The notes below the pieces were generated by a model. The model worked only from the letters and a program-made list of their open reading frames with translations. It searched no databases and was not told where the DNA came from. Of a stretch of 64,000 nucleotides of DNA, positions 42,156-59,577 are shown one piece after another. Source of the stretch: Methanoplanus endosymbiosus (GTDB lineage: Archaea; Halobacteriota; Methanomicrobia; Methanomicrobiales; Methanomicrobiaceae); NCBI RefSeq assembly GCF_024662215.1, contig NZ_CP096115.1:744001-808000 (forward strand). The letters are read 5' to 3'. How positions within the stretch are numbered: position 1 is the stretch's first letter; every line of letters starts with the position of its first letter. The translations under genes were made by a program, and so were the position numbers.

Positions 42156-43230
42156 CGGTAGTGTCCTAAGATGGCATACTATATTGTGTGATGAATGACA
42201 TATATTTATGTGATACATATGGCTCGCCCACGTGGAAAAATAGATGTTGTCTGCCAAAATCCTGAGTGTCAATATTATCTCAAAGAGGAAGGAAAGGATA
42301 TAATCAAACGAGGAAAAGATGCCAGAACTTCTCATCAACGATATTACTGCAAACACTGTACAAAATTTTTCATGGAAACTAAAGGTACTCCCCTATTCTA
42401 CAAACACCTATCTGAAAAAGAAATTATAACCATTTGCAAGCATTTTGTGGAGAAAAATGGAATAAGAAGCATCGAAAGATTAACGGGTCACCACCGCGAT
42501 ACAATTGGACGGTTGCTTACTGATGTAGCTGAGCATGCAGCAAAGATGAATGATATACTCATTGAAGAACTTGATCTAAGCCCTATAGAATGTGATGAGT
42601 TCTGGAGTTTCATTAAAAAAAACAAAAAAATGTTGTCAAAGAAAGCTCAGAACCAGATTTCGTTGGCAATGCATGGACATACACAGCAATAAAACGAAAA
42701 TCCTATTTTATAATTTCTTTTGCAGTTGGAAAACATAAACAAGCAACCTGTAATGTCATGATGAATGACCTTTATGAAAGAATTAAGCTCCCTGATCCAC
42801 AATCAAAACTTGAAATTTATACTGATGGGAATGACCAATATCTGACAAGTTTAAATGCTCTTTACGCTAATCCCTGCGTTAACTATGGTCAGTTAATAAA
42901 AGTCCGGAAAAAGGGGAGAGTTGAAGAAAAATACAAAATTGCAGTTATTGGTGAGCCGCCGTTATCCAAAATTGAAACTACTGATGTTGAAAATTCTAAT
43001 GGAATCCTTCGTGAAAGAGTTGGCCGTTTGGTGAGAAAAGCGAAGACATTCTCAAAGTTAAAACCAAAATTAGAATCAGCATTAGATATTTTTCAATTTT
43101 ATTGGAATTTTATGAATGAATTCAAGAAAAAACCTACACCAAGAATGATTGAAGGTATAATTGATAGAAAGATTACATGGCCAGTATTTTTACATTCAAT
43201 AATTAAGTATGTTAATTGATGTCACTACCG
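42156..43230 (+). mobile_element. IS1-like insertion sequence
   Basis: A 1075-bp element bounded by inverted ends CGGTAGTG (42156-42163) and CACTACCG (43223-43230). TTTAT flanks both sides (42151-42155 and 43231-43235) and may be a 5-bp target duplication. It interrupts the type I restriction locus: the hsdR start lies right of it and the peptidase gene left of it, with most of hsdR missing. Confidence 0.85.
42228..43219 (+). CDS. IS1-like transposase made by a -1 frameshift
   Basis: Frame 1 runs from MARPRGKIDVVCQNPECQYY (42228) to 42692 and has the zinc-finger/HTH part (CxxxxC, YYCKHC, GIRSIERLTGHHRDTIGRLL) and the first catalytic Asp (ECDEFWSF). Frame 2, shifted by -1, supplies EPDFVGNAWTYTAIKRKSYF, the second Asp (YTDGNDQYL) and the Glu near NSNGILRERVGRL. 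The frames meet at an A-rich run, ATTAAAAAAAACAAAAAAAT at 42616-42635, which has the form of the IS1 slippery site. Together they give a normal full-length transposase, so the split looks programmed, not a mutation. Confidence 0.85.
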
Positions 43231-48200: not shown

Positions 48201-48561
48201 ATCCCAATTTTATTCCTTTACGCAGGCAGAGTATATTATAATGACTGCTGCTTTTTTTTCACCCGGAAGTATTAAATAAAAACCCAGCATATAATCTGAA
48301 TATATTCCATTTTACCAGCTTTTCCGGAAATAATCACTATATTCCCCCCAAATTATGCAGACATCCAATAACAGAGAGAGAATATCCGGACATCCAAATC
48401 TGACCGGGTAATTGACAGATTATTAAGGATTTTCTGGCTCACAATTCAATCTGTCCGGAAGATAACTCAGGCTTCCGGGTTTTAATTCCGGAAAACTTAC
48501 TCCATAGATAATGAAAACTGATATTTTACAATGCCTGCTGAAAAGTTGATTTTTTTAAGGA
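48201..48561. other. Intergenic region before the RiPP cluster
   Basis: About 360 nt, AT-rich, between divergent genes. No gene or repeat recognised. Confidence 0.5.
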
Positions 48562-48577
48562 CGATATATTTATATTC
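48562..48577 (+). promoter_or_regulatory. TATA-like promoter of the RiPP maturase operon
   Basis: GATATATTTATATTCC lies ~25 nt before the ATG at 48595, giving a nearly leaderless transcript for the unknown gene and the radical SAM gene. Confidence 0.6.
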
Positions 48578-48594
48578 CGGATCAATAATTATTA

Positions 48595-49578
48595 ATGATA
48601 TTTGATGAGAAATTTGTTTTTTATGACCGGGAATCTGCCAAAGATTTTATTCTGGTTATGAAAAAATTCGGTGCTAAATGTCGTATAAATGAAGTCCTCC
48701 ATAACGAACCGGAAGATATTATCACCGGAAAAATGGATGACATAAACAGGTGGATTCTTGCAATTGCAGATAACAACGATAGCGACATTAAAAATATTTT
48801 TCTCGCAATGCATGAGAAAAATGAGATAATAAAAGATACAATTGATCAGTATCTAAAAGATAAATCCAAAGGTGACTTCCTGTACTCCCATGATGAACTG
48901 GCAGAAGATGTAACGGAGGTAAGTGAAAGAATGGAGGAGCAGATGCACGGAAAAGACCGGGACAATCCTTATGATCTGATTGACTTACTATCCACATTTA
49001 TTGAGAGTTCGCCATTAAGTATAATTAACAGGGTTCTGGAAGATCAGGGCGTTCTTGAGGAGACTGAAGAGGGATTTTGGCTTAAGGAAAAAATAAGCGG
49101 AGGAGATATAATTTATCAGGTTCCGGAGATAGAAGACAAATATTGTACAGGTCCGGAATTTTCCGGATTAAAACATACAACAATATTTAAACCAATTATA
49201 AAATACGAGATCCCCGTCAATATTATGGATATTATTGACCTTGATATGGATGACATAGGTACTATTATGATGGGATGTGGAATGGATCCAGATGATACGG
49301 CCAATCTGATGTCAGATTATTTATTTAAGAAGACTATTATAGAGCTGATCTTAACGGGAGTTGATGAAAACAGAGGAATATCTACCGAAGAGTTGTCTGC
49401 CGATATTATGGATGAATGGAGCTCTGTATCATATATGGGGGATTTGGATTCCAGACTTTATTTAAATCCGGAAGTCATACCTGCTTTTATAACAGAACTT
49501 AAACGTGCAGGTATATTATCCGGAAATCTCAATAGTATTAAGCCTGCCTTAACTAAAAGCCGTAAAAAAAGAAGATAA
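48595..49578 (+). CDS. Unknown protein coupled to the radical SAM maturase
   Basis: 327 aa, soluble and acidic. No known domain recognised. It resembles the 330-aa protein at 37600-38592 throughout, including the MIFDEKFVFYDRES start, GDFLYSHDEL, SSPLSIINRVLEDQGVLEE and a C-terminal AFITELKRAGILSG segment. Its stop is only 41 nt before the maturase ATG and nothing separates them, so both are likely one transcript from the TATA box at 48562. Possible jobs are leader recognition, immunity or regulation of the peptide pathway; the existence of a paralogue elsewhere argues for a broader role. Function unknown. Confidence 0.75.
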   Translation: MIFDEKFVFYDRESAKDFILVMKKFGAKCRINEVLHNEPEDIITGKMDDINRWILAIADNNDSDIKNIFLAMHEKNEIIKDTIDQYLKDKSKGDFLYSHDELAEDVTEVSERMEEQMHGKDRDNPYDLIDLLSTFIESSPLSIINRVLEDQGVLEETEEGFWLKEKISGGDIIYQVPEIEDKYCTGPEFSGLKHTTIFKPIIKYEIPVNIMDIIDLDMDDIGTIMMGCGMDPDDTANLMSDYLFKKTIIELILTGVDENRGISTEELSADIMDEWSSVSYMGDLDSRLYLNPEVIPAFITELKRAGILSGNLNSIKPALTKSRKKRR

Positions 49579-49619
49579 AATTATTGCAGATAAATAATAA
49601 GATAAAACTGGAGATATTC

Positions 49620-51035
49620 ATGCAATGGTCACGATATAACCGATTATTCCGGTCAGAAAACAAAAGAGGCTACCTTTACAGCATCATGTCCAACACTCTT
49701 TTTGAAGTTGACGAAGTACATTATCAGATCCTTGAAGGGTTTTTGACCGGAAAAACAGATACTGCTCCCTGCAATGAAACTTTTTTAAATATTCTGCATG
49801 AAAAAAACGTCCTGGTAAAACCCGGAGAAGAGAAAAATCTGCTCCAAAACTGCCAGTACATGCGTCAGGCTGCCTGTTTTGACAACACTCATCTTGCCCT
49901 TACTATCTGCCCCACACTCAGCTGCAATTTCCGTTGTCCCTACTGCTTTGAGCAGAGCCAAAACGACAGATCAACCATGAACGGGGATACAACAGACAGG
50001 CTTATTACATTTATTCAGAGTCACCACGATGCCCAACACCTTGATGTGACCTGGTACGGCGGTGAACCTCTTCTTGCATTTGATATTATCTGTGAACTGA
50101 CAGAACGCTTCAAAGACCTTGATCTCCATTATGAAAAAGCAGGACTTGTTACAAACGGCTATCTTTTAGATGAAAATAAGATCTCCCGGTTAAATGAACT
50201 TATGATAAAGTCCATCCAGATAACACTGGACGGTCCGCGGGAGATCCATGATACACGCCGGGTACTTGCCGGCGGTGGTCCCACATATGACCGGATTCTT
50301 GCCAATATCACTGCACTGCTTGATTCAGATTATCAGGGGAGCTTTAAGATCAGGGTCAATATTGACCGTGAGAATATGGACCACTATATCCCGCTTAGGA
50401 ATAGTCTTATGGAAGAGTTCAGAGGAAAGAAGATAACAGTGCAGACCGGACATGTCCAGACGGAGATCACCAGCCCCTATTATAACCGGACCCTTAACAC
50501 AGACGAATTTGATAATTTCAACTTAGGCCTCTTCCGGCAGGAGGGCATACTTCCACCGGGCGGCTTTTATCCGGAAAGTTACCTTGGCAGTGTCTGTCTT
50601 GCCAACCGGCATATGGGATTTGTTGTCGGCCCAAAAGGAGAACTCTATAAGTGCTGGGAAGACCCCGGAAAACCGGAGATGGTTATCGGTTCGGTATATA
50701 ATGATGAACCGGTTACAAATCCCGTTCTTAGAGCACAATATACTGTCGGAACAGACCCATTCTGTGACCCTGAATGCACGGACTGTGAAATGCTTCCCAT
50801 ATGTGGCGGCGGATGTGCCAATAAAAGGCTAAGGGCAAAGGAGTTCGGCGAGGAAGGGCCTGAATACTGCACAGCCTGCAAAAACCACCTGAATGAACAT
50901 CTGGAGGCGTATATCAGGACATTTACGACAAAAGAACTCTGTAAGGACCTTTTTGACACAAAAAAAGAGAAAAAACCGGACCCCGGATACCGTATCATCT
51001 CACCACAGCCGGAAAAAAGAAGCAAAGATGTGTAA
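49620..51035 (+). CDS. Radical SAM/SPASM peptide maturase for Nif11-type precursors
   Basis: 471 aa from the ATG at 49620, which has a Shine-Dalgarno (CTGGAG) 7 nt upstream; a TTG at 49584 is in frame. Radical SAM motif CNFRCPYC (C102, C106, C109) binds the catalytic cluster; WYGGEPLL and QITLDGPREIHD are family motifs. The C-terminal SPASM part has CWEDPG, CDPECTDCEMLPICGGGC and YCTACK for auxiliary clusters. The first ~90 residues look like a winged-helix leader-binding domain. Enzymes of this type make thioether or carbon-carbon cross-links in ribosomal peptides. Five Nif11-leader precursors lie downstream on the other strand, the obvious substrates. The bond formed cannot be read from sequence. 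Confidence 0.92.
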   Translation: MQWSRYNRLFRSENKRGYLYSIMSNTLFEVDEVHYQILEGFLTGKTDTAPCNETFLNILHEKNVLVKPGEEKNLLQNCQYMRQAACFDNTHLALTICPTLSCNFRCPYCFEQSQNDRSTMNGDTTDRLITFIQSHHDAQHLDVTWYGGEPLLAFDIICELTERFKDLDLHYEKAGLVTNGYLLDENKISRLNELMIKSIQITLDGPREIHDTRRVLAGGGPTYDRILANITALLDSDYQGSFKIRVNIDRENMDHYIPLRNSLMEEFRGKKITVQTGHVQTEITSPYYNRTLNTDEFDNFNLGLFRQEGILPPGGFYPESYLGSVCLANRHMGFVVGPKGELYKCWEDPGKPEMVIGSVYNDEPVTNPVLRAQYTVGTDPFCDPECTDCEMLPICGGGCANKRLRAKEFGEEGPEYCTACKNHLNEHLEAYIRTFTTKELCKDLFDTKKEKKPDPGYRIISPQPEKRSKDV

Positions 51036-51127
51036 GGGTGTTAATCAAAACTTTGCCGGTTTACTCATACCTGATATGACATATCATCTAATCAAGACTA
51101 ATCTGTCCATATCACACCATTGCACCA

Positions 51128-51270
51128 TTTTATAGTGCAGAACCTTACGTTTAGGAATAATCTGAATGAAATGAAAATTATTTATAGGCGTGCATTCTAA
51201 TCGCACTACATAGTCTTTAAGCAAACTTTCCGGACTTTTCCGGAAAATTTTGTATTAGACTATAGTTCAA
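51128..51270. repeat. Dispersed palindromic element, long copy 1
   Basis: Begins TTTTATAGTGCAGAACCTTA, holds a small hairpin (GTGCATTCTAATCGCAC) and the nested inverted repeat TAGTCT...AAACTTTCCGGA...TCCGGAAAATTTT...AGACTA. It is ~95% like 54563-54703, and both lie 3' of a precursor gene. A short copy is at 37339. Confidence 0.8.
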
Positions 51271-51310
51271 CATGGGTGAGAATCAATATCAATAAGAATT
51301 CTAATGTATT

Positions 51311-51547
51311 TCACCAGTAATTATGACAAACTGTAATGCAGTCAGGAACGCTCCCACCCGTAACAGCCTTAAGTTCTTCGTCTGAGAGCTGTTCCATCAC
51401 CTGCTCCATCTCTTCTCTGGTGAAATCAAACCCGGCTTCTCTGAGGATTTTATGCCTGGTTTCTGAGTCTTCCTTCTGAATCTTCTCGCAGAAGTCCTTG
51501 TCGGTCTGCATCTTCTTTACAAATTTTTCTGCACTTTCAAGTGACAT
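51311..51547 (-). CDS. Nif11-type RiPP precursor 1
   Basis: 78 aa. The leader (MSLESAEKFVKKMQTDKDFC, then IQKEDSETRHKILREAGFDF) is a Nif11-like leader peptide, ending in LSDEELKAVTGG, the double-Gly cut site for a C39 peptidase. The core is 13 residues, SVPDCITVCHNYW: two Cys three apart, a His, and aromatic end. Its ATG is directly followed upstream by the IS701-like element; the original promoter is now 2 kb away at 53564 because of two insertions. It may therefore be silent or driven from the IS. Nearly identical to precursor 3. Confidence 0.92.
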   Translation of the reverse strand: MSLESAEKFVKKMQTDKDFCEKIQKEDSETRHKILREAGFDFTREEMEQVMEQLSDEELKAVTGGSVPDCITVCHNYW

Positions 51548-51551
51548 ATAT

Positions 51552-53270
51552 CTCTACAATGTCACTTTTAACAGAATAAAGTTGTCCCTTATTCGTTTTT
51601 AGGACTTTGACAACCATTTTTGTTCTAAAATGGATCTAATTTAAATTAAGAATAATTTTACATTAATTTGTGCACCCAAATATTACATTGGAAAGACACA
51701 TATCGTAAAAAAACAAAATGATATGTCGAAGCTGTTAGCTATCTAAATGCATATAGGGTGGTTTAGACTATAGCTTCAACTTACATTTTTTGGGCACTTT
51801 TTCTTTGATTTCGACAATTTTGTTCTCTCTTGGTTTATGCAATTCCGCACTATAATATGGGCAACTTTTTCACTCGTAATAGGATTCAAAGGATATTTAC
51901 ATCGTATTATGAGCTTCATATGATAAATTGTAAGTTCGAATTCTGTCTTACTTGCCAAATTTTTGAAATCAAGCCATAAATAGAACATAGCAAGAATTAC
52001 AAGTGCTATATGGTGATGCCATCCTCTCCATCCTCTAACCTGATAATCATCCATTTTTGCAAGATCCACAGCATCCTGGAAAGAGCGCTCAATCCAGTAC
52101 CTTGAAGCCTGCATCTCTGCTAATTTCTTCAGAGAATTGATAGTAATATCATTACAAAATGAATATTTGTGCACTATTTTGTTATTTTCATCCAACTCTC
52201 TACGAATAAGAAGCAGAACTGGAAGTGGTCTGTTTTCTTTACTATCTATCCTCCAAACTTTTCTGACAATAAATTCTGCTTCCAGTGGACCTTTCGTAGA
52301 GTCTCTGACCTTGATTTTTTCCCAATCATTGGCCAATTTCGCAATTTTTGAAATATAGACTGGTGTACCGTTTAGAACTCTTACTCTGGTTGGTATCCTT
52401 CCTCTTTTGCCTCTCCTTGGTGGAATTCCATATTTTGGCTCTTCCAGATAAACTCGATTTGCTGACTTAACTGAGGCCATATATGTTATTCCCATCTCTT
52501 CAAGTTTCGTCAGCAACTGTGGAATACCCCCGTAGAATCCATCCATACAAACATAACTAAATTTAATGCCCTCCTCTATTGCCCGAACTATCAATTCAAG
52601 GCACAATTCTCCTTTAGTTTTAAAGACTCTGTATTCCTGGGGAACTCCTGCTCTATCACATCTTTCAGAGTCATCGCACCATTCTTTAGGGAGATAAAGC
52701 CTAAAATCAAGAATTATTCTTTTTGCTGCCTTTACATAGCATGAATAGACTCCTACCTGACAGTTGTCAACTTTTCCCACATTTCCGGAATATTGCCTTT
52801 TCACCCCAACTGAATGTTTTCCTTTCTTTTTTGAACCTTTCTCATCAATGACTAATGCACCGTTTTTCCCAACAAAATCATTAACATTTGAATAAATCCA
52901 CTGTGTTATCTTAGAATGATCCCACGGCGAATTTGAGAGAAAATGAGAAAAGGCCTGATTATCTCTTTCGCTTGTACAATCAGAGATCTTTGTAAGGTTA
53001 GCTCTACTTTCAATTGTAAAAAGACCTTTAATACAGTCTATACCAATTGGAAATAGATTATTAGTCTTTGTTTTAAAAAAGTCAATAAAAACCTCTGATT
53101 TAGGTAACTGTCCCAAGTTTGATCGAAAAGTACGAATCCTTTTTGTCAAACTAATTTTATTGTACAGCCTTTCATTTGTACACAAATATAAAATATATAT
53201 TTTAAAGTATTTATATTTTTTTATTTACCTCAGTGCATGCTCGCCCATGTGCTAATTTGACATAGTAGAG
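51552..53270 (-). mobile_element. IS701-like insertion sequence with 4-bp target duplication
   Basis: 1719 bp with inverted ends CTCTACAATGTCA (51552-51564) and TGACATAGTAGAG (53258-53270; one mismatch). ATAT is duplicated on both sides (51548-51551 and 53271-53274). It sits immediately upstream of the start codon of precursor 1. Confidence 0.9.
51776..53185 (-). CDS. IS701-family DDE transposase
   Basis: 469 aa. ALVIDEKGSKKKGKHSVGVK and RQYSGNVGKVDNCQVGVYSC hold the first catalytic Asp and the family signature of IS701-type (DDE_5/SRSO17-like) transposases. FSYVCMDGFYGG gives the second Asp, and RYWIERSFQDAVDLAKMDDY the Glu (E in IERSFQ). It is full length with no break, so the element may still move. 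No other gene is in the element. Confidence 0.9.
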   Translation of the reverse strand: MCTNERLYNKISLTKRIRTFRSNLGQLPKSEVFIDFFKTKTNNLFPIGIDCIKGLFTIESRANLTKISDCTSERDNQAFSHFLSNSPWDHSKITQWIYSNVNDFVGKNGALVIDEKGSKKKGKHSVGVKRQYSGNVGKVDNCQVGVYSCYVKAAKRIILDFRLYLPKEWCDDSERCDRAGVPQEYRVFKTKGELCLELIVRAIEEGIKFSYVCMDGFYGGIPQLLTKLEEMGITYMASVKSANRVYLEEPKYGIPPRRGKRGRIPTRVRVLNGTPVYISKIAKLANDWEKIKVRDSTKGPLEAEFIVRKVWRIDSKENRPLPVLLLIRRELDENNKIVHKYSFCNDITINSLKKLAEMQASRYWIERSFQDAVDLAKMDDYQVRGWRGWHHHIALVILAMFYLWLDFKNLASKTEFELTIYHMKLIIRCKYPLNPITSEKVAHIIVRNCINQERTKLSKSKKKCPKNVS

Positions 53271-53284
53271 ATATGCCAATGGAC

Positions 53285-53545
53285 CTATGGTGTCATTATG
53301 CCGTTGGAAAATATGATTATTTACTCCAATAAATAAGTGGAATGGGAGGGATAAATCCTAAAAACACTATTTTTGTGACAGCAGGTAGTTTTTTGCATGT
53401 AACTCATACTGTGGTATGATATGTCACTACATCATATGATTGTCACCATACAATAATAATGGCATATTAGAAATGCATGAAGAAAATTGGCTACACTGAT
53501 AAGTATTTAGTGAGCCAAAAATCCAACCCTATTTTGACACCATAG
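53285..53545. mobile_element. 261-bp MITE with 11-bp inverted ends and 8-bp target duplication
   Basis: Perfect inverted ends CTATGGTGTCA (53285-53295) and TGACACCATAG (53535-53545), flanked by the direct repeat CAATGGAC (53277-53284 and 53546-53553). No open frame inside. It lies between the IS701-like element and the promoter of precursor 1. The mobilising transposase is not evident in this window. Confidence 0.88.
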
Positions 53546-53563
53546 CAATGGACATTACAACCA

Positions 53564-53575
53564 CCTAAATATTTA
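53564..53575 (-). promoter_or_regulatory. Displaced promoter of precursor 1
   Basis: CTAAATATTTAG and flanks equal the CTTAAATTTTT boxes of the sister precursors. After removing the MITE with one 8-bp repeat (269 bp) and the IS with one 4-bp repeat (1723 bp), the distance to the ATG at 51547 is 25 nt, the same as in copies 2, 3 and 4. Confidence 0.75.
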
Positions 53576-53675
53576 GGTTCAGAGCAGGACAGATCCACGC
53601 CCGTTTAGAACATTAAATGAAAATCTGACCTATCCTAAAGGCACCCATTGTTCAGGAACCTTTGATTCATTTAAC

Positions 53676-53915
53676 CTAAAAATGACAATGGACATAGCAG
53701 TCAGCAACGCCCGAATCGCTCCCGCCTGTAACTGCCTTAAGTTCTTCGTCTGAGAGCTGTTCCATTGCCTTATCCATCTCTTCTCTGGTGAAATCAAACC
53801 CGGCTTCCCTGAGAATTTTATGCCTGGTTTCTGAGTCTTCCTTCTGAATCTTCTCGCAGAAGTCCTTATCTGTCTGCATCTTCTTTACAAATTTTTCCGC
53901 ACTTTCAAGTGACAT
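53676..53915 (-). CDS. Nif11-type RiPP precursor 2
   Basis: 79 aa from the ATG at 53915 (MSLESAEKFVKK); three in-frame upstream codons with a TTG are unlikely because the promoter box lies only 25 nt before the ATG. The leader is the same as in copy 1 and ends ELKAVTGG. The 14-residue core is SDSGVADCYVHCHF: Cys pair three apart with His on both sides of the second Cys, and aromatic end. The core and its downstream DNA are identical to precursor 5 at 55982. Confidence 0.93.
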   Translation of the reverse strand: MSLESAEKFVKKMQTDKDFCEKIQKEDSETRHKILREAGFDFTREEMDKAMEQLSDEELKAVTGGSDSGVADCYVHCHF

Positions 53916-53939
53916 ATATGCCAATGGGCATTACGACCA

Positions 53940-53950
53940 CTTAAACTTTT
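53940..53950 (-). promoter_or_regulatory. TATA-like box of precursor 2
   Basis: Plus strand CTTAAACTTTT; on the minus strand AAAAGTTTAAG, 25 nt before the ATG at 53915, followed upstream by the shared CTCTGAACCT block. Confidence 0.6.
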
Positions 53951-54092
53951 AGGTTCAGAGCAGGACAGAACCGCGCCCGTTTAGAACGTTAAATGAAAAT
54001 CTGACCAGTCCTGCCATAAAAACACACGTCCGGCAGACACCTTTGATTTTCACACTCATAAAGCATTCACAGACATCATAATGTTTTACACA

Positions 54093-54367
54093 CTATCTAT
54101 GCGCTGACAGAACCTGCCGGCAGATGAGTGATTTTAATGGACAGCACAAAAACCACATTTGCCCAGACTCCTTTTCACCCGTAACTGCCTTAAGTTCTTC
54201 TTCTGAGAGCTGTTTCATTGCATTATCCATCTCCTCTCCGGGAAATCAAAATCGGCATCTAAGATGACATTACACCTGTTTTCCTCTATCTTTTTCTGAA
54301 ATTACCCGCAGAAGTCCTTATCAGTCTGCATTTTCGTTACAAATCCTTCTGCACTTTCAGGTGGCAT
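54093..54367 (-). pseudogene. Decayed Nif11-type precursor
   Basis: Starts MPPESAEGFVTKMQTDKDFCG and hits a TAA. Further on, a second frame reads MDNAMKQLSEEELKAVTGEK and goes on to a TAG at 54093. The Gly-Gly site has become Gly-Glu and no Cys-rich core of the usual form remains. Its promoter box (CTTAAATTTTC at 54393) is kept, 26 nt upstream. Confidence 0.8.
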
Positions 54368-54562
54368 ATATAGTTGTGAAGATTTTTGACTGCTTAAATT
54401 TTCTAATCATTTTTCTCTGCCTGAGATCCACCTCCTCTACGGTGAAATAAAATATAGATCAAACGGTTTGTCTTCTAAAATGGAGGTATTGTGGGGGAGA
54501 ATAGTTAAAAACCAGCACTGTAGCCCGGACTACGCGAAAAGCAGCCACGCATATTGCGGTTG

Positions 54563-54703
54563 TTTTATAGTGCAGAACCTTACGTTTAGGAATAATCTGA
54601 ATGAAATGAAGATTATTTATAGGCGTGCATTCTAATCGCACCACATAGTCTTAAGCAAACTTTCCGGACTATTCCGGAAAGTTTGTAATATACTATACTA
54701 ATG
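54563..54703. repeat. Dispersed palindromic element, long copy 2
   Basis: Same as 51128-51270: TTTTATAGTGCAGAACCTTA to AGTTTGTAATATACTATA. It ends 4 nt before the stop of precursor 3. As a possible 3' element it could form a strong hairpin (AAACTTTCCGGA/TCCGGAAAGTTT) after the precursor message. Confidence 0.8.
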
Positions 54704-54707
54704 TATT

Positions 54708-54944
54708 TCACCAGTAATTATGGCAATGTGCAAAGCAGTCAGGAACGCTCCCACCCGTAACAGCCTTAAGTTCTTCGTCTGAGAGCTGTTCCATTGCCTT
54801 ATCCATCTCTTCTCTGGTGAAATCAAACCCGGCTTCCCTGAGGATTTTATGCCTGGTCTCTGAGTCTTCCTTCTGAATTTTCTCACAGAAGTCCTTATCG
54901 GTCTGCATCTTCTTTACAAATTTTTCTGCACTTTCAAGTGACAT
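54708..54944 (-). CDS. Nif11-type RiPP precursor 3
   Basis: 78 aa from the ATG at 54944 (MSLESAEKFVKK). Leader as in the other copies, ending AVTGG. Core SVPDCFAHCHNYW, differing from precursor 1 at three positions (ITV to FAH). Both keep DCxxxCHNYW, so the Cys pair, His and aromatic end are under selection or recently copied. Promoter box 25 nt upstream. Confidence 0.93.
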   Translation of the reverse strand: MSLESAEKFVKKMQTDKDFCEKIQKEDSETRHKILREAGFDFTREEMDKAMEQLSDEELKAVTGGSVPDCFAHCHNYW

Positions 54945-54968
54945 AAACTTCAATTAGTATTATGACCA

Positions 54969-54979
54969 CTTAAATTTTT
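54969..54979 (-). promoter_or_regulatory. TATA-like box of precursor 3
   Basis: AAAAATTTAAG on the minus strand, 25 nt before the ATG at 54944, so the transcript should be leaderless. Confidence 0.65.
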
Positions 54980-55028
54980 AGGTTCAGAGGCACTGTCTAA
55001 AGGTCCAGTGATGAATGATTATTTATAA

Positions 55029-55115
55029 TAAACAGTTCATTTTCCGGTTGATTTGAGCAGGCAAAATCAGTTTCCTACTGATACATCACTGAAAAATCCG
55101 ACTGTGCCGATCCAT
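55029..55115 (+). repeat. Dispersed ~85-nt repeat family, plus-strand copy
   Basis: Matches 22500-22583 (minus strand) and part of 21926-21992. Key blocks: GGTTGATTTGAGCAGG, AATCAGTTTCCTACTGA, CATCACTGAAAAATCCGACT. Confidence 0.6.
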
Positions 55116-55130
55116 CTCCAGTGCCACAAT

Positions 55131-55170
55131 GGCTTTTCATCCGTAACAGCCCTTAGCTCTTTGTCTGTAT
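55131..55170 (-). pseudogene. Tail fragment of another Nif11-type precursor
   Basis: The minus strand codes TDKELRAVTDEKP, a decayed form of SDEELKAVTGG, with no leader start found. It marks a further lost copy. Confidence 0.5.
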
Positions 55171-55596
55171 GCTTGCTTTCAGACTTAGAATAGCATTGGA
55201 AATTATGATTAAATCTTCTGATTCTAAGGATATGAAACTAACAACCGGGGACTTCTTAAGGAAACTTAAGAGGGTGGAGAGAACGGACATTGATTTGGGA
55301 GATGAAATTGAAGTCTGCCACATGAATATGACTGGTGATGTTCGGAAGCAACCTGATGCACTAAACATGAAATCTTTGCTCGTAAATGGAAGGGTCAAAA
55401 AGGAATAGTGCATATTTTTTAGCTATTTGGGTTACTTCCTCTCTTAACTCGCCTGATCCAAGACATAGTGATTAATTAATCACCAGAATATTCAATGTCA
55501 TTTAATCTATTTGGGGACCTAAATCAAAAATATAATGCATAAAATTGGTTGTATTGGGGTTGGGGAAATAAACCTATTGATCATATAATGCTCTGT

Positions 55597-55845
55597 TCAC
55601 GCCCAAAATGCATGCTCGGGAAGGAATCTACGACAGTCTGAACCGGCTCCTCCACCCGTAACAGCCTTAAGTTCTTCATCTGAGAGCTGCTCCATTGCCT
55701 TATCCAGCTCTTCTCTGGTGAAATCAAACCCGGCTTCCCTGAGGATTTTATGCCTGGTCTCTGAGTCTTCCTTCTGAATTTTCTCACAGAAGTCCTTATC
55801 GGTCTGTATCTTCTTTACAAATTTTTCTGCACTTTCAAGTGACAT
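55597..55845 (-). CDS. Nif11-type RiPP precursor 4, variant core
   Basis: 82 aa from the ATG at 55845. Leader intact and the same as the others (one change, KKIQTDKD; ELDKAMEQ), ending AVTGG. The core is different: GAGSDCRRFLPEHAFWA, with only one Cys and a His and Trp near the end. It may be a real variant substrate, or the product of a frameshift after DC. The promoter (CTTAAATTTTT at 55870) is intact. Confidence 0.85.
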   Translation of the reverse strand: MSLESAEKFVKKIQTDKDFCEKIQKEDSETRHKILREAGFDFTREELDKAMEQLSDEELKAVTGGGAGSDCRRFLPEHAFWA

Positions 55846-55869
55846 AAACTTCAATTAGTATTACAACCA

Positions 55870-55880
55870 CTTAAATTTTT
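55870..55880 (-). promoter_or_regulatory. TATA-like box of precursor 4
   Basis: Same box and same 25-nt spacing as for precursor 3; identical flanks (GGTTCAGAG). Confidence 0.65.
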
Positions 55881-55981
55881 AGGTTCAGAGCAGGACAGAT
55901 CCACGCCCATTTAGAACATTAAATGAAAATCTGACCTATCCTAAAGGCACCCATTGTTCAGGAACCTTTGATTCATTCAAC

Positions 55982-56221
55982 CTAAAAATGACAATGGACA
56001 TAGCAGTCAGCAACGCCCGAATCGCTTCCACCCGTAACTGCCTTAAGTTCTTCGTCTGAAAGCTCTTCCATTGCCTTATCCGGCTCTTCTCTGGTGAAAT
56101 CAAACCCGGCTCCCCTGATGATTTTATGCCTGATTTCTGAGTCTTCCTTCTGAATTTTCTCACAGAACTCTTTATCAGTCTGCATCCTCTTTACAAATTC
56201 TTCTGCACTTTCAGGTGGCAT
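55982..56221 (-). CDS. Nif11-type RiPP precursor 5
   Basis: 79 aa, MPPESAEEFVKRMQTDKEFC then HKIIRGAGFDFTREEPDKAM, a leader diverged from the other four. The core SDSGVADCYVHCHF equals that of precursor 2, and the ~200 nt from the leader end to beyond the stop are nearly identical to 53585-53800, pointing to gene conversion or unequal crossing-over. A Pro in the last leader helix (EEPDKAM) is unusual. Its promoter region differs from the other copies. Confidence 0.9.
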   Translation of the reverse strand: MPPESAEEFVKRMQTDKEFCEKIQKEDSEIRHKIIRGAGFDFTREEPDKAMEELSDEELKAVTGGSDSGVADCYVHCHF

Positions 56222-56727
56222 ATATAGTTGTAGAGACTTTTTAGCTCCTTAATCTTTACGATCTCCATAGAACCCCTTTACAGCCATATTCAGGTAATTT
56301 CTGCCGGAATAACACAATAAATCTTAGTAGCATCCGGACAACAGCACCTCAGCCATAACAGTTTTTACGAAAGCGTAAAACCACATAATCTATCACCATA
56401 AGTTATATCCGGAAAATATAAGCATAAAAACCTACTACATATGGATATTACCGGTTCTTACAGTTTCATCACCCGGATGCCGGTTACAGAATGTAAGAAC
56501 ACAGGTGACACTAAGGAATTATTCATAACAATAAGGCAGACCCGGGTACCGGTTACAGTTCTGACATACTGTGTATTATGCCAGATCAGCTGCCATTCTG
56601 AAATAAAAATAAGAACAGTAAAATGTTCAGCCGTCATAAAATAATTTAAAGCCCCCATGGTAAAAATTCTGCTGAACAGCCCCATATCCGGATAATTCAT
56701 ACAGACCACCAAAGGACAGGAAAAAAC
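56222..56727. other. Intergenic region before the RiPP export operon
   Basis: About 500 nt. Contains TATA-like AAAATATAAGC near 56412 and short inverted copies of GGTTCTTACAG/TGTAAGAACA. It should hold divergent promoters for precursor 5 and the exporter genes. No gene recognised. Confidence 0.5.
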
Positions 56728-57348
56728 ATGAGAAAAGACCTGTTTAGAAAAGAACCATTAAAGAGGCTGGCCGCTCCCGACAATACTCAACAGCTCATCG
56801 TTCAGCCCAGGCTGTCCTTATGGATTCTGCTTGCTGCTCTGGCAGTCATACTTATTACAGTGTCATCAGCGTATCTGACCATGACCATATACAGCACAGT
56901 AAACGGCAACGGAATTTTCATAAGCAATTCATCGGACCATGCCCCTAAATCTCCGCTGGATTATGAAGTTCTGCTTTTCATCCCGATAGATGAAGGAAAC
57001 AAAGTATCCACCGGAATGAAAGCACAGATAACTCCGCAGAACATGGACATGGAAGAATATACATACATAAAAGGAACAGTCACCGGCATTTCATCATGGC
57101 CGGTAACAGAAGATGAGATAACAGAAAGACTCAATCATTCAGAACTTGGGGATTACTTCCTGAAAAAAGCCGGAGATCCGGTGTACATAGTAACAGTCTC
57201 TCCCATACAGGACAAAAAAGACCCGGAATCATTTGTTTATTCTGCACAGACAGGCGAAGAACCGGTAATAAAACCCTACTTCATGTGCCACGGACGGATA
57301 ATAACAGATGAAGAGACCGTTCTGGAAAAATTCTTCCCGCCACTATAA
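56728..57348 (+). CDS. NHLM-type bacteriocin secretion protein (HlyD-like), short
   Basis: 206 aa. MRKDLFRKEPLKRLAAPDNT is the typical start of the NHLM-system HlyD-like protein. One membrane helix (LWILLAALAVILITVSSAYL) is followed by a beta domain. The long coiled-coil and lipoyl part of bacterial relatives is missing: the sequence goes from GNGIFI straight to the beta-barrel-like region (DEGNKVSTGMKAQITPQ). That suits an archaeal cell without an outer membrane. It is 15 nt before the C39 ABC transporter gene and forms the export complex with it. Confidence 0.82.
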   Translation: MRKDLFRKEPLKRLAAPDNTQQLIVQPRLSLWILLAALAVILITVSSAYLTMTIYSTVNGNGIFISNSSDHAPKSPLDYEVLLFIPIDEGNKVSTGMKAQITPQNMDMEEYTYIKGTVTGISSWPVTEDEITERLNHSELGDYFLKKAGDPVYIVTVSPIQDKKDPESFVYSAQTGEEPVIKPYFMCHGRIITDEETVLEKFFPPL

Positions 57349-57363
57349 ACAGTAACATATCTT

Positions 57364-59577
57364 ATGAAGTTAATCGATACTAAGTTTATCAATTTTCATA
57401 ACATGATCCGCCCAGCAAAAAGGGTAAAAACTCCGGTAATACTACAGCTTGAGGCAGTAGAATGTGGAGCTGCGGCTCTGGCAATTATTCTTGGCTATCA
57501 TAAACTTTTCCTCCCGCTGGAGAAGGTCCGGGCAGATTGCGGAGTATCACGGGACGGAAGCCAGGCCATTAATATGGTAAAAGCCGCCCGGAAATATGGC
57601 ATGGTGGCAAAGGGGCTTAGAAAAGACGTTGACGGACTAAGAGACCTTGAAATGCCAGTTATACTCCACTGGAACTTCAACCATTTCATAGTCCTTGAAG
57701 GATTTACCGGAGATAAAGCGTACATCAACGACCCAGCCATTGGCAGACGGACAGTAAAGATGGAGGAGCTAAATCAGTCTTTTACAGGAATAGTCCTCAG
57801 CATCACCCCCGGAAACAACTTCAGACCTTCAGGTTCACGGACAAATATCAAAAGCCTGTTAATACCCAAAATAAAGCCTGAAATCATCCCGCTGATATAC
57901 CTAATCATTGCAGGAGTGGCAATGTTAATTCCGGGAATTGCCCTTCCGGTTGCAAACAGTATATTCTTTGATGATATTGTTCTGGCAAACCGCTCATCAC
58001 TGCTGTACCCGCTTCTTTTATACATGAGCTTTTTTGTGGTACTCCAGTTACTGATCAGCTGGGCAAGGGAGACATGCCTTGCACAATGGGAAAACGACCT
58101 GTCATTCAGACTATCAAGGACTTTTTTTCATAAAATATTATTCCTGCCGGTCAGTTTCTTTGATCAGAGGTACGCAGGGGAGATATCATCAAGAGTTGAA
58201 CTAAACAACCAGGTATCAGCGATCATATGCGGGAAAGGTGCAACAGCAGTCCTTGACATCTTCATATCAATAGTCTATCTTATACTGCTCTTCATACTAA
58301 GCACTGCACTCTCAGTTGTAGCCTGCTTCATTGCCATAGGAAACCTCGTATTTTTAAGCTGGATTTCATCAAAAAGAATAGACTTAAGCAGAAAACTCAT
58401 CCTTGAACAGGGAAAGATCAGTGGGGTTGCATACTCCGGAATCGGGATGATCGAGTCGCTTAAAGCCAGCGGAAAAGAATCAGAATTCTTTGAGAGATGG
58501 GCAGGACATCATGCACAGTACATTAATACCGAGCGTTCTGTCTCAAAAACCTCCTCAATGATGGCTATTGTTCCGGTAATGATAAACGGTCTTGGAACAA
58601 CTGCCATCCTTGCTGTAGGAAGCAATCTTATCTTTGCCGGCAGCATCACAATCGGTTTCTTCTTCGCATATCAGGCACTGCTTGCAAATTTCCTGATGCC
58701 AATCCAGAGGCTTATAAACGTAGGAGGGGACTTATCAGAGCTTGAAGGCACACTTCAGAGACTTGCCGATGTTGAGCGCAATATCCCGGACGACAAAAAA
58801 TTATCCATCCTTGATTCGGAGCCCCTGACAGGGAATAAGCAGAGAAAACTGGACGGTTATGTAGAGTTTAAGGATATAACATTTGGCTACAGTCCCCTTG
58901 AAGCTCCGCTGCTGGATAATTTCTCATTTTCACTAAAACCGGGAAGCCGTGTTGCACTGGTAGGGCCTTCAGGATGCGGCAAGAGTACTATTGCCCGTCT
59001 GATGGCCGGACTGTATGAACCATGGTCAGGAGAGATACTCATAGACGGCAAAAAAATCTCTGAAATTCCAAAGCAGCAGCTGTACCTCTCTCTTGCATTC
59101 GTGAATCAGGAGATCTTCATCTTTGAGGGAACAGTCCGGGACAATATTACTTTGTGGGATAAAACCCTTCCGGATGCCAAAATAATCCAGGCTGCAAAGG
59201 ATGCAGAGATACACGACCTGATCTCATCACTTTCAAAAGACTATGACCATCCGGTCTCAGAAGGTGGCCGGGATTTAAGCGGGGGTCAGAAGCAGCGGCT
59301 TGAGATAGCACGGGCAATTGCCAAAGACCCATCCATTCTTGTTCTTGATGAAGCCACCAGTGCCCTTGATGCACTCACTGAAAAACAGATTGAGCATAAT
59401 CTAAGGAAAAGAGGCTGTACATGTCTTATAATTGCTCACCGGCTGAGTACTATCCGGGACTGTGACAATATTATTGTCCTTGATAAAGGTAAGATCGTTG
59501 AAGAGGGAACACATCAGCAGCTTATGAAGAATAAAGGGCCATATTTCCGGCTCATAACAGCTGAAGAGGAGGCATGA
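57364..59577 (+). CDS. Peptidase-containing ABC transporter (C39, NHLM type 1)
   Basis: 737 aa. C39 peptidase at ~15-150: catalytic C34 (LEAVECGAAALA), H107 (HWNFNHFIVLEG) and D123 (YINDPAIG), all present. Six-helix membrane domain at ~170-470. ABC domain at ~500-735: Walker A VGPSGCGKST, Q-loop FVNQEIF, signature DLSGGQKQR, Walker B ILVLDEATSALD, H-loop IIAHRLST. It cuts precursors after the TGG and exports the modified cores. It overlaps the next transporter gene by 4 nt (ATGA). Confidence 0.95.
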   Translation: MKLIDTKFINFHNMIRPAKRVKTPVILQLEAVECGAAALAIILGYHKLFLPLEKVRADCGVSRDGSQAINMVKAARKYGMVAKGLRKDVDGLRDLEMPVILHWNFNHFIVLEGFTGDKAYINDPAIGRRTVKMEELNQSFTGIVLSITPGNNFRPSGSRTNIKSLLIPKIKPEIIPLIYLIIAGVAMLIPGIALPVANSIFFDDIVLANRSSLLYPLLLYMSFFVVLQLLISWARETCLAQWENDLSFRLSRTFFHKILFLPVSFFDQRYAGEISSRVELNNQVSAIICGKGATAVLDIFISIVYLILLFILSTALSVVACFIAIGNLVFLSWISSKRIDLSRKLILEQGKISGVAYSGIGMIESLKASGKESEFFERWAGHHAQYINTERSVSKTSSMMAIVPVMINGLGTTAILAVGSNLIFAGSITIGFFFAYQALLANFLMPIQRLINVGGDLSELEGTLQRLADVERNIPDDKKLSILDSEPLTGNKQRKLDGYVEFKDITFGYSPLEAPLLDNFSFSLKPGSRVALVGPSGCGKSTIARLMAGLYEPWSGEILIDGKKISEIPKQQLYLSLAFVNQEIFIFEGTVRDNITLWDKTLPDAKIIQAAKDAEIHDLISSLSKDYDHPVSEGGRDLSGGQKQRLEIARAIAKDPSILVLDEATSALDALTEKQIEHNLRKRGCTCLIIAHRLSTIRDCDNIIVLDKGKIVEEGTHQQLMKNKGPYFRLITAEEEA

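Follow-up and report, generated by a model that had tools for sequence, protein, structure and literature searches.

Two adjacent insertions separate a Nif11-leader precursor gene from its presumed promoter in an archaeal RiPP array

Two neighbouring elements, an IS701-family insertion sequence and a short MITE-like element, lie directly in front of the start codon of precursor 1 (P1) in an archaeal array of near-identical Nif11-leader precursor genes; each is flanked by its own target repeat, and a paralogous site in the same array is uninterrupted. Each element arrived by an ordinary transposition of its own into the same short spacer. Our full account, in which the two hits displaced the promoter of P1 and left the gene most likely near-silent, has in our estimate a probability of roughly 80%. 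As a natural case of promoter displacement in an archaeal RiPP array, the locus is well controlled.

The precursor array and its surroundings

The window, i.e., the whole stretch of 64,000 nucleotides that was analysed, corresponds to positions 744001-808000 of a genome that consists of one contig with 3,163,021 bases. The host genome is archaeal (SSU_rRNA_archaea match, 1494.8 bits). The array occupies 51311-56221 on the minus strand and consists of five intact Nif11-leader precursors and one broken copy (psi). All five intact precursors scored above the cut-off of 32.3 for the Nif11 leader profile TIGR03798, with 62.5-68.3 bits. The members of the array are (window positions):

51311..51547, minus strand: precursor 1 (P1), 78 aa; TIGR03798 67.1 bits (cut-off 32.3), PF07862
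53676..53915, minus strand: precursor 2 (P2), member of the same array as P1, upstream region without interruption
54163..54375, minus strand: broken precursor copy (psi), leader with a stop and a frameshift
54708..54944, minus strand: precursor 3 (P3), core nearest to that of P1, SVPDCFAHCHNYW
55597..55845, minus strand: precursor 4 (P4); the P4-P5 unit serves as empty-site control
55982..56221, minus strand: precursor 5 (P5), core identical to the P2 core

The reading frame of P1 is intact; its Nif11-type leader ends in TGG, and its core is SVPDCITVCHNYW. On one side the array is flanked by a radical SAM gene (49584-51035), which passed none of the maturase cut-offs among its best 25 models in the profile search. 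On the opposite side lie an HlyD-like gene (94.4 bits, below the cut-off of 156.2) and a C39-peptidase ABC exporter (57364-59577; TIGR03796, 961.2 bits, cut-off 853.3), so that an exporter containing a peptidase domain is found near the Nif11-type precursors. An Rfam search of 48500-57000 returned no matches up to an E value of 0.5. In another genome (G003:C1:2534984-2544353), about seven radical SAM genes that are relatives of the one flanking the array (49584-51035) are arranged in tandem. Elsewhere in the window, an IS1-like element (42179-43228) has the ends CGGTAGTG and CACTACCG, read by eye, and a transposase in two frames that matched IS1 with 51.8 bits, below the cut-off of 100.

The private changes in the leaders (synonymous/non-synonymous) were 3/3 in P1, 4/0 in P2, 0/0 in P3, 2/1 in P4 and 2/10 in P5. 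Since the P1 leader shows no surplus decay and the frame is intact, P1 was either silenced recently or is still used; it is P5 rather than P1 that looks relaxed, which fits both possibilities. The array loses members independently of the insertions, as the P5 leader is diverging and the sixth copy is broken; P1 is displaced in addition. The redundancy of the array presumably makes the loss of P1 tolerable. The upstream region of P5 has diverged as well. The stretch CTCTACAA found there was considered as an IS relic and rejected, because the broken copy has CTTCACAA at the same stretch, so that ordinary divergence accounts for it. A 90-nt duplication, 98% identical, connects 51128-51217 downstream of P1 with 54563-54652 downstream of P3. 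As the downstream flank of P1 thus resembles that of P3 but its upstream region resembles that of P4, the array is a mosaic of duplications.

Two insertions and an uninterrupted paralogous site

The following features lie in front of P1:

51548..51551, strand not applicable: ATAT, left target-duplication copy of the IS
51552..53270, minus strand: IS701-family insertion sequence, 1719 bp, transposase reading toward P1
51776..53185, minus strand: IS701 transposase, 469 aa from TTG
53271..53274, strand not applicable: ATAT, right target-duplication copy of the IS
53277..53284, strand not applicable: CAATGGAC, left target-duplication copy of the MITE-like element
53285..53545, strand not applicable: MITE-like element, 261 bp, perfect 11-bp inverted ends CTATGGTGTCA, single copy
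53546..53553, strand not applicable: CAATGGAC, right target-duplication copy of the MITE-like element
53566..53576, minus strand: stranded A/T box of P1, presumed core promoter, CTAAATATTTA; best model match, 5.43 bits

The initial annotation had recognized an IS701-like element with a duplicated ATAT at 51552-53270, and the ends, the repeats and the transposase profile all bear this out. The ends CTCTACAATGTCA and CTCTACTATGTCA are terminal inverted repeats that match in 12 of 13 bp. The transposase (51776-53185) scored 300 bits with NCBIfam NF033540 (IS701; cut-off 150), the match covering positions 25-361 of 363, and also matched Pfam DDE_5. The genome holds only one further copy (G000:C1:2225096-2226773), 91% identical, which has ATAA on either side, as read by eye, and thereby confirms the ends of the element. 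A 4-bp target duplication is the defining value for the IS701 family, and both copies have one (ATAT in the first, ATAA in the second). The transposase of the second copy starts with ATG and has 471 aa; the window copy lacks that ATG and would have to start at TTG, so its transposase may be impaired. A preference of the IS for start codons was considered and dropped, since the second copy adjoins no clear gene start.

The second element had been described as a MITE, and this holds in part. The element is short and non-coding (no ORF of at least 40 aa is listed in 53285-53545), its inverted ends were also recovered by a blind inverted-repeat search, and the 8-bp target repeat CAATGGAC is perfect and located exactly at these ends. 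It is present in one copy in its own genome, however, and is therefore not a MITE in the strict sense, for which several copies are expected. Elsewhere in the genome its end sequence appears at a single site, about the chance expectation for 11 bases in 3.16 Mb, and the exact end pattern had no matches in a search of genome contigs. A comparison that covered 232 genomes of the class, its own among them, gave one weak 54-nt match in another genome, G019, and no parent element was found among the 231 other genomes of the class. Because it is single-copy and has no known parent, we call the 261-bp element MITE-like. The lack of other copies in its own genome, and of relatives in the class beyond the 54-nt match, would also suit a stretch of native spacer that carries inverted ends by chance and was never transposed. 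We consider this very unlikely, given that the perfect 11-bp inverted ends coincide exactly with a perfect 8-bp direct repeat, and that a paralog without the interruption aligns gap-free.

The insertions had further been described as nested and the order of events as readable. Neither description could be maintained: the elements are adjacent, with just GC between their target repeats, and since both elements and their target repeats are free of interruption by the neighbouring element, either order of insertion yields the present sequence. The spacing of just 14 bp between the two elements, in a single intergenic site, could also point to their arrival as one composite unit, or to one being part of the other. 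The outer flanks are unlike (ATAT versus CAATGGAC), though, each element has a repeat of its own, nothing similar adjoins the second IS copy, and the genome contains the small element just once, which makes a common arrival extremely unlikely.

A control is provided by the array itself. We joined the flanks by removing both elements and one copy of each target repeat from 51311-53924. The joined sequence aligned with the P4-P5 unit over 574 nt with 92% identity and no gaps; when the uninterrupted P4-P5 unit was compared with the P1 region as it stands, the match broke at the insertion. The P4-P5 unit is thus a natural empty site, paralogous and in the same array. The alignment and the target repeats support the earlier proposal that both elements separate the P1 start codon from an upstream region once common with its sisters. 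In the joined P1 sequence the ATG is 25 nt away from the conserved box, the same distance as in P2 (53915), P3 (54944) and P4 (55845), as read by eye; the initial annotation, which had arrived at this spacing by subtraction, was right in its arithmetic.

The displaced box and the expression of precursor 1

An archaeal TATA-like box lies about 25 nt before the transcription start. A box that ends 25-26 nt before the ATG points to an mRNA that is leaderless or nearly so, and we take this box as the presumed promoter of P1. To score such boxes, we used an 11-nt model trained on 11 precursors of G131, a genome from another archaeal family of the same order. The twelfth precursor of G131 (L105 66362, which begins without ATG) and three precursors of G128 were left out of the training, and both exclusions were chosen after the upstream regions had been inspected. 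The model has the consensus AAAAGTATTTA and ends 24-29 nt before the ATG (25-26 nt in nine of the 11 training precursors). None of 200 shuffled sets reached its likelihood or its position concentration, a comparison that overstates the significance because the training precursors are paralogs. The model works only with a position limit of -50 to -15; without this limit, a different motif adjoining the ATG wins.

For the joined P1, the best match lay at a distance of 26 nt from the ATG (5.43 bits, the top score among the sequences of its own genome), as it did for P3 and P4 (3.44 bits each). In P2, whose upstream region is intact, the best box was at 24 nt and reached -0.15 bits, not far above the IS end and equalled by 27% of 161 other upstream regions within the same position range, and P5 scored below the IS end. 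Such a low score for P2, an intact sister, shows how weak the model is. A TATA motif of the genome itself did not emerge from expectation maximization (EM): 161 upstream regions (400 kb plus the window) gave a TTCCGGA repeat motif instead, and 30 tRNA upstream regions gave no stable motif. A sigma-70 promoter scan was set aside as inapplicable to an archaeon.

In our account, an IS701-family element entered at ATAT, immediately before the P1 start codon, and the site CAATGGAC, 2 bp farther upstream, received a non-autonomous element of 261 bp. Together, the insertions would have pushed the presumed core promoter of P1 about 2 kb away, and P1 would most likely give little or no product while its sisters continue. 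The initial annotation had called P1 probably off, which is reasonable in view of the displaced box and of an IS end with no better-than-chance box, although the box model is weak. The case for P1 being off rests mainly on the displacement of the upstream block by about 2 kb.

Continued expression of P1 is rather unlikely, whether driven by transcripts that run on from the transposase gene, by the stranded promoter or by weak outward promoter activity of the IS end. The transposase and P1 are on the same strand, 228 nt apart; the IS contains A/T boxes of 7.6 and 6.7 bits before the transposase, and ACAACTTTATT is found 27 nt before the P1 ATG. The intact frame of P1 also fits its expression, and insertion sequences can provide promoters for neighbouring genes, as is known from a large-scale report (PMC9208149). 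The boxes in the IS end, however, score no better than shuffled sequences: the IS end now upstream of P1 reached -1.8 bits at 27 nt, a score matched by 40% of 161 other upstream regions and, among 1000 shuffles, by 461, and the best box within the 228 nt between the transposase stop and P1 was equalled by 806 of 1000 shuffles. The stretch between the transposase and P1 includes, on the minus strand, a T7 run (51713-51707) at which transposase transcripts could terminate, and an upstream ORF of 26 codons, starting at 51617, overlaps the P1 start; both speak against efficient expression of P1. No Shine-Dalgarno sequence was seen by eye. We therefore favour the reading that P1 is probably silent. 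There is, in our view, a slim chance that the two elements together form a switch of the peptide repertoire, either reversible, as the 25-nt spacing would return if both were lost exactly, or rewired, with P1 carried along on the transposase transcript and made only when the IS is active.

Relation to known systems and distribution

The locus is a clean example of an ordinary process, with known kinds of element and gene, and the displacement of the P1 promoter leaves the general view unchanged. Its use lies in the sisters P2-P4, which serve as internal controls for the requirements of an archaeal promoter of the leaderless type. The larger element resembles other members of the IS701 family (NF033540) in its transposase profile, its short inverted ends and the 4-bp target duplication of both copies, and differs in sequence divergence only; there are two copies here, 91% identical. 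With MITEs, the small element shares the short, non-coding sequence, the perfect terminal inverted repeats and the target duplication, but it is single-copy and no parent element was found. The cluster is similar to Nif11-leader (NHLP-type) RiPP clusters in its leader profile and its C39-peptidase ABC exporter (TIGR03796), and differs in its archaeal host and in a radical SAM gene that stays below the maturase cut-offs among the best 25 models. Insertion of IS elements within proximal promoters, altering expression, is common in prokaryotes according to PMC9208149; the P1 locus resembles the gene-upstream insertions described there in its position in a proximal promoter, but here a single short spacer within a RiPP precursor array holds a stack of two unrelated elements. 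A literature search found nothing on this locus.

A close strain without the insertions was not found: among 40 relatives the precursor was present in its own genome only, a search of genome contigs gave 157 pattern matches, none of which was confirmed, and the same-genus genome G001 had no precursor, IS or small element at the thresholds used. Such precursors are rare: of 231 genomes of the class, counting its own, 3 have TIGR03798. In G131 (L104-L108), 12 Nif11 precursors were present, many with cores of the type WHPxCxxDGHCGxxCE.
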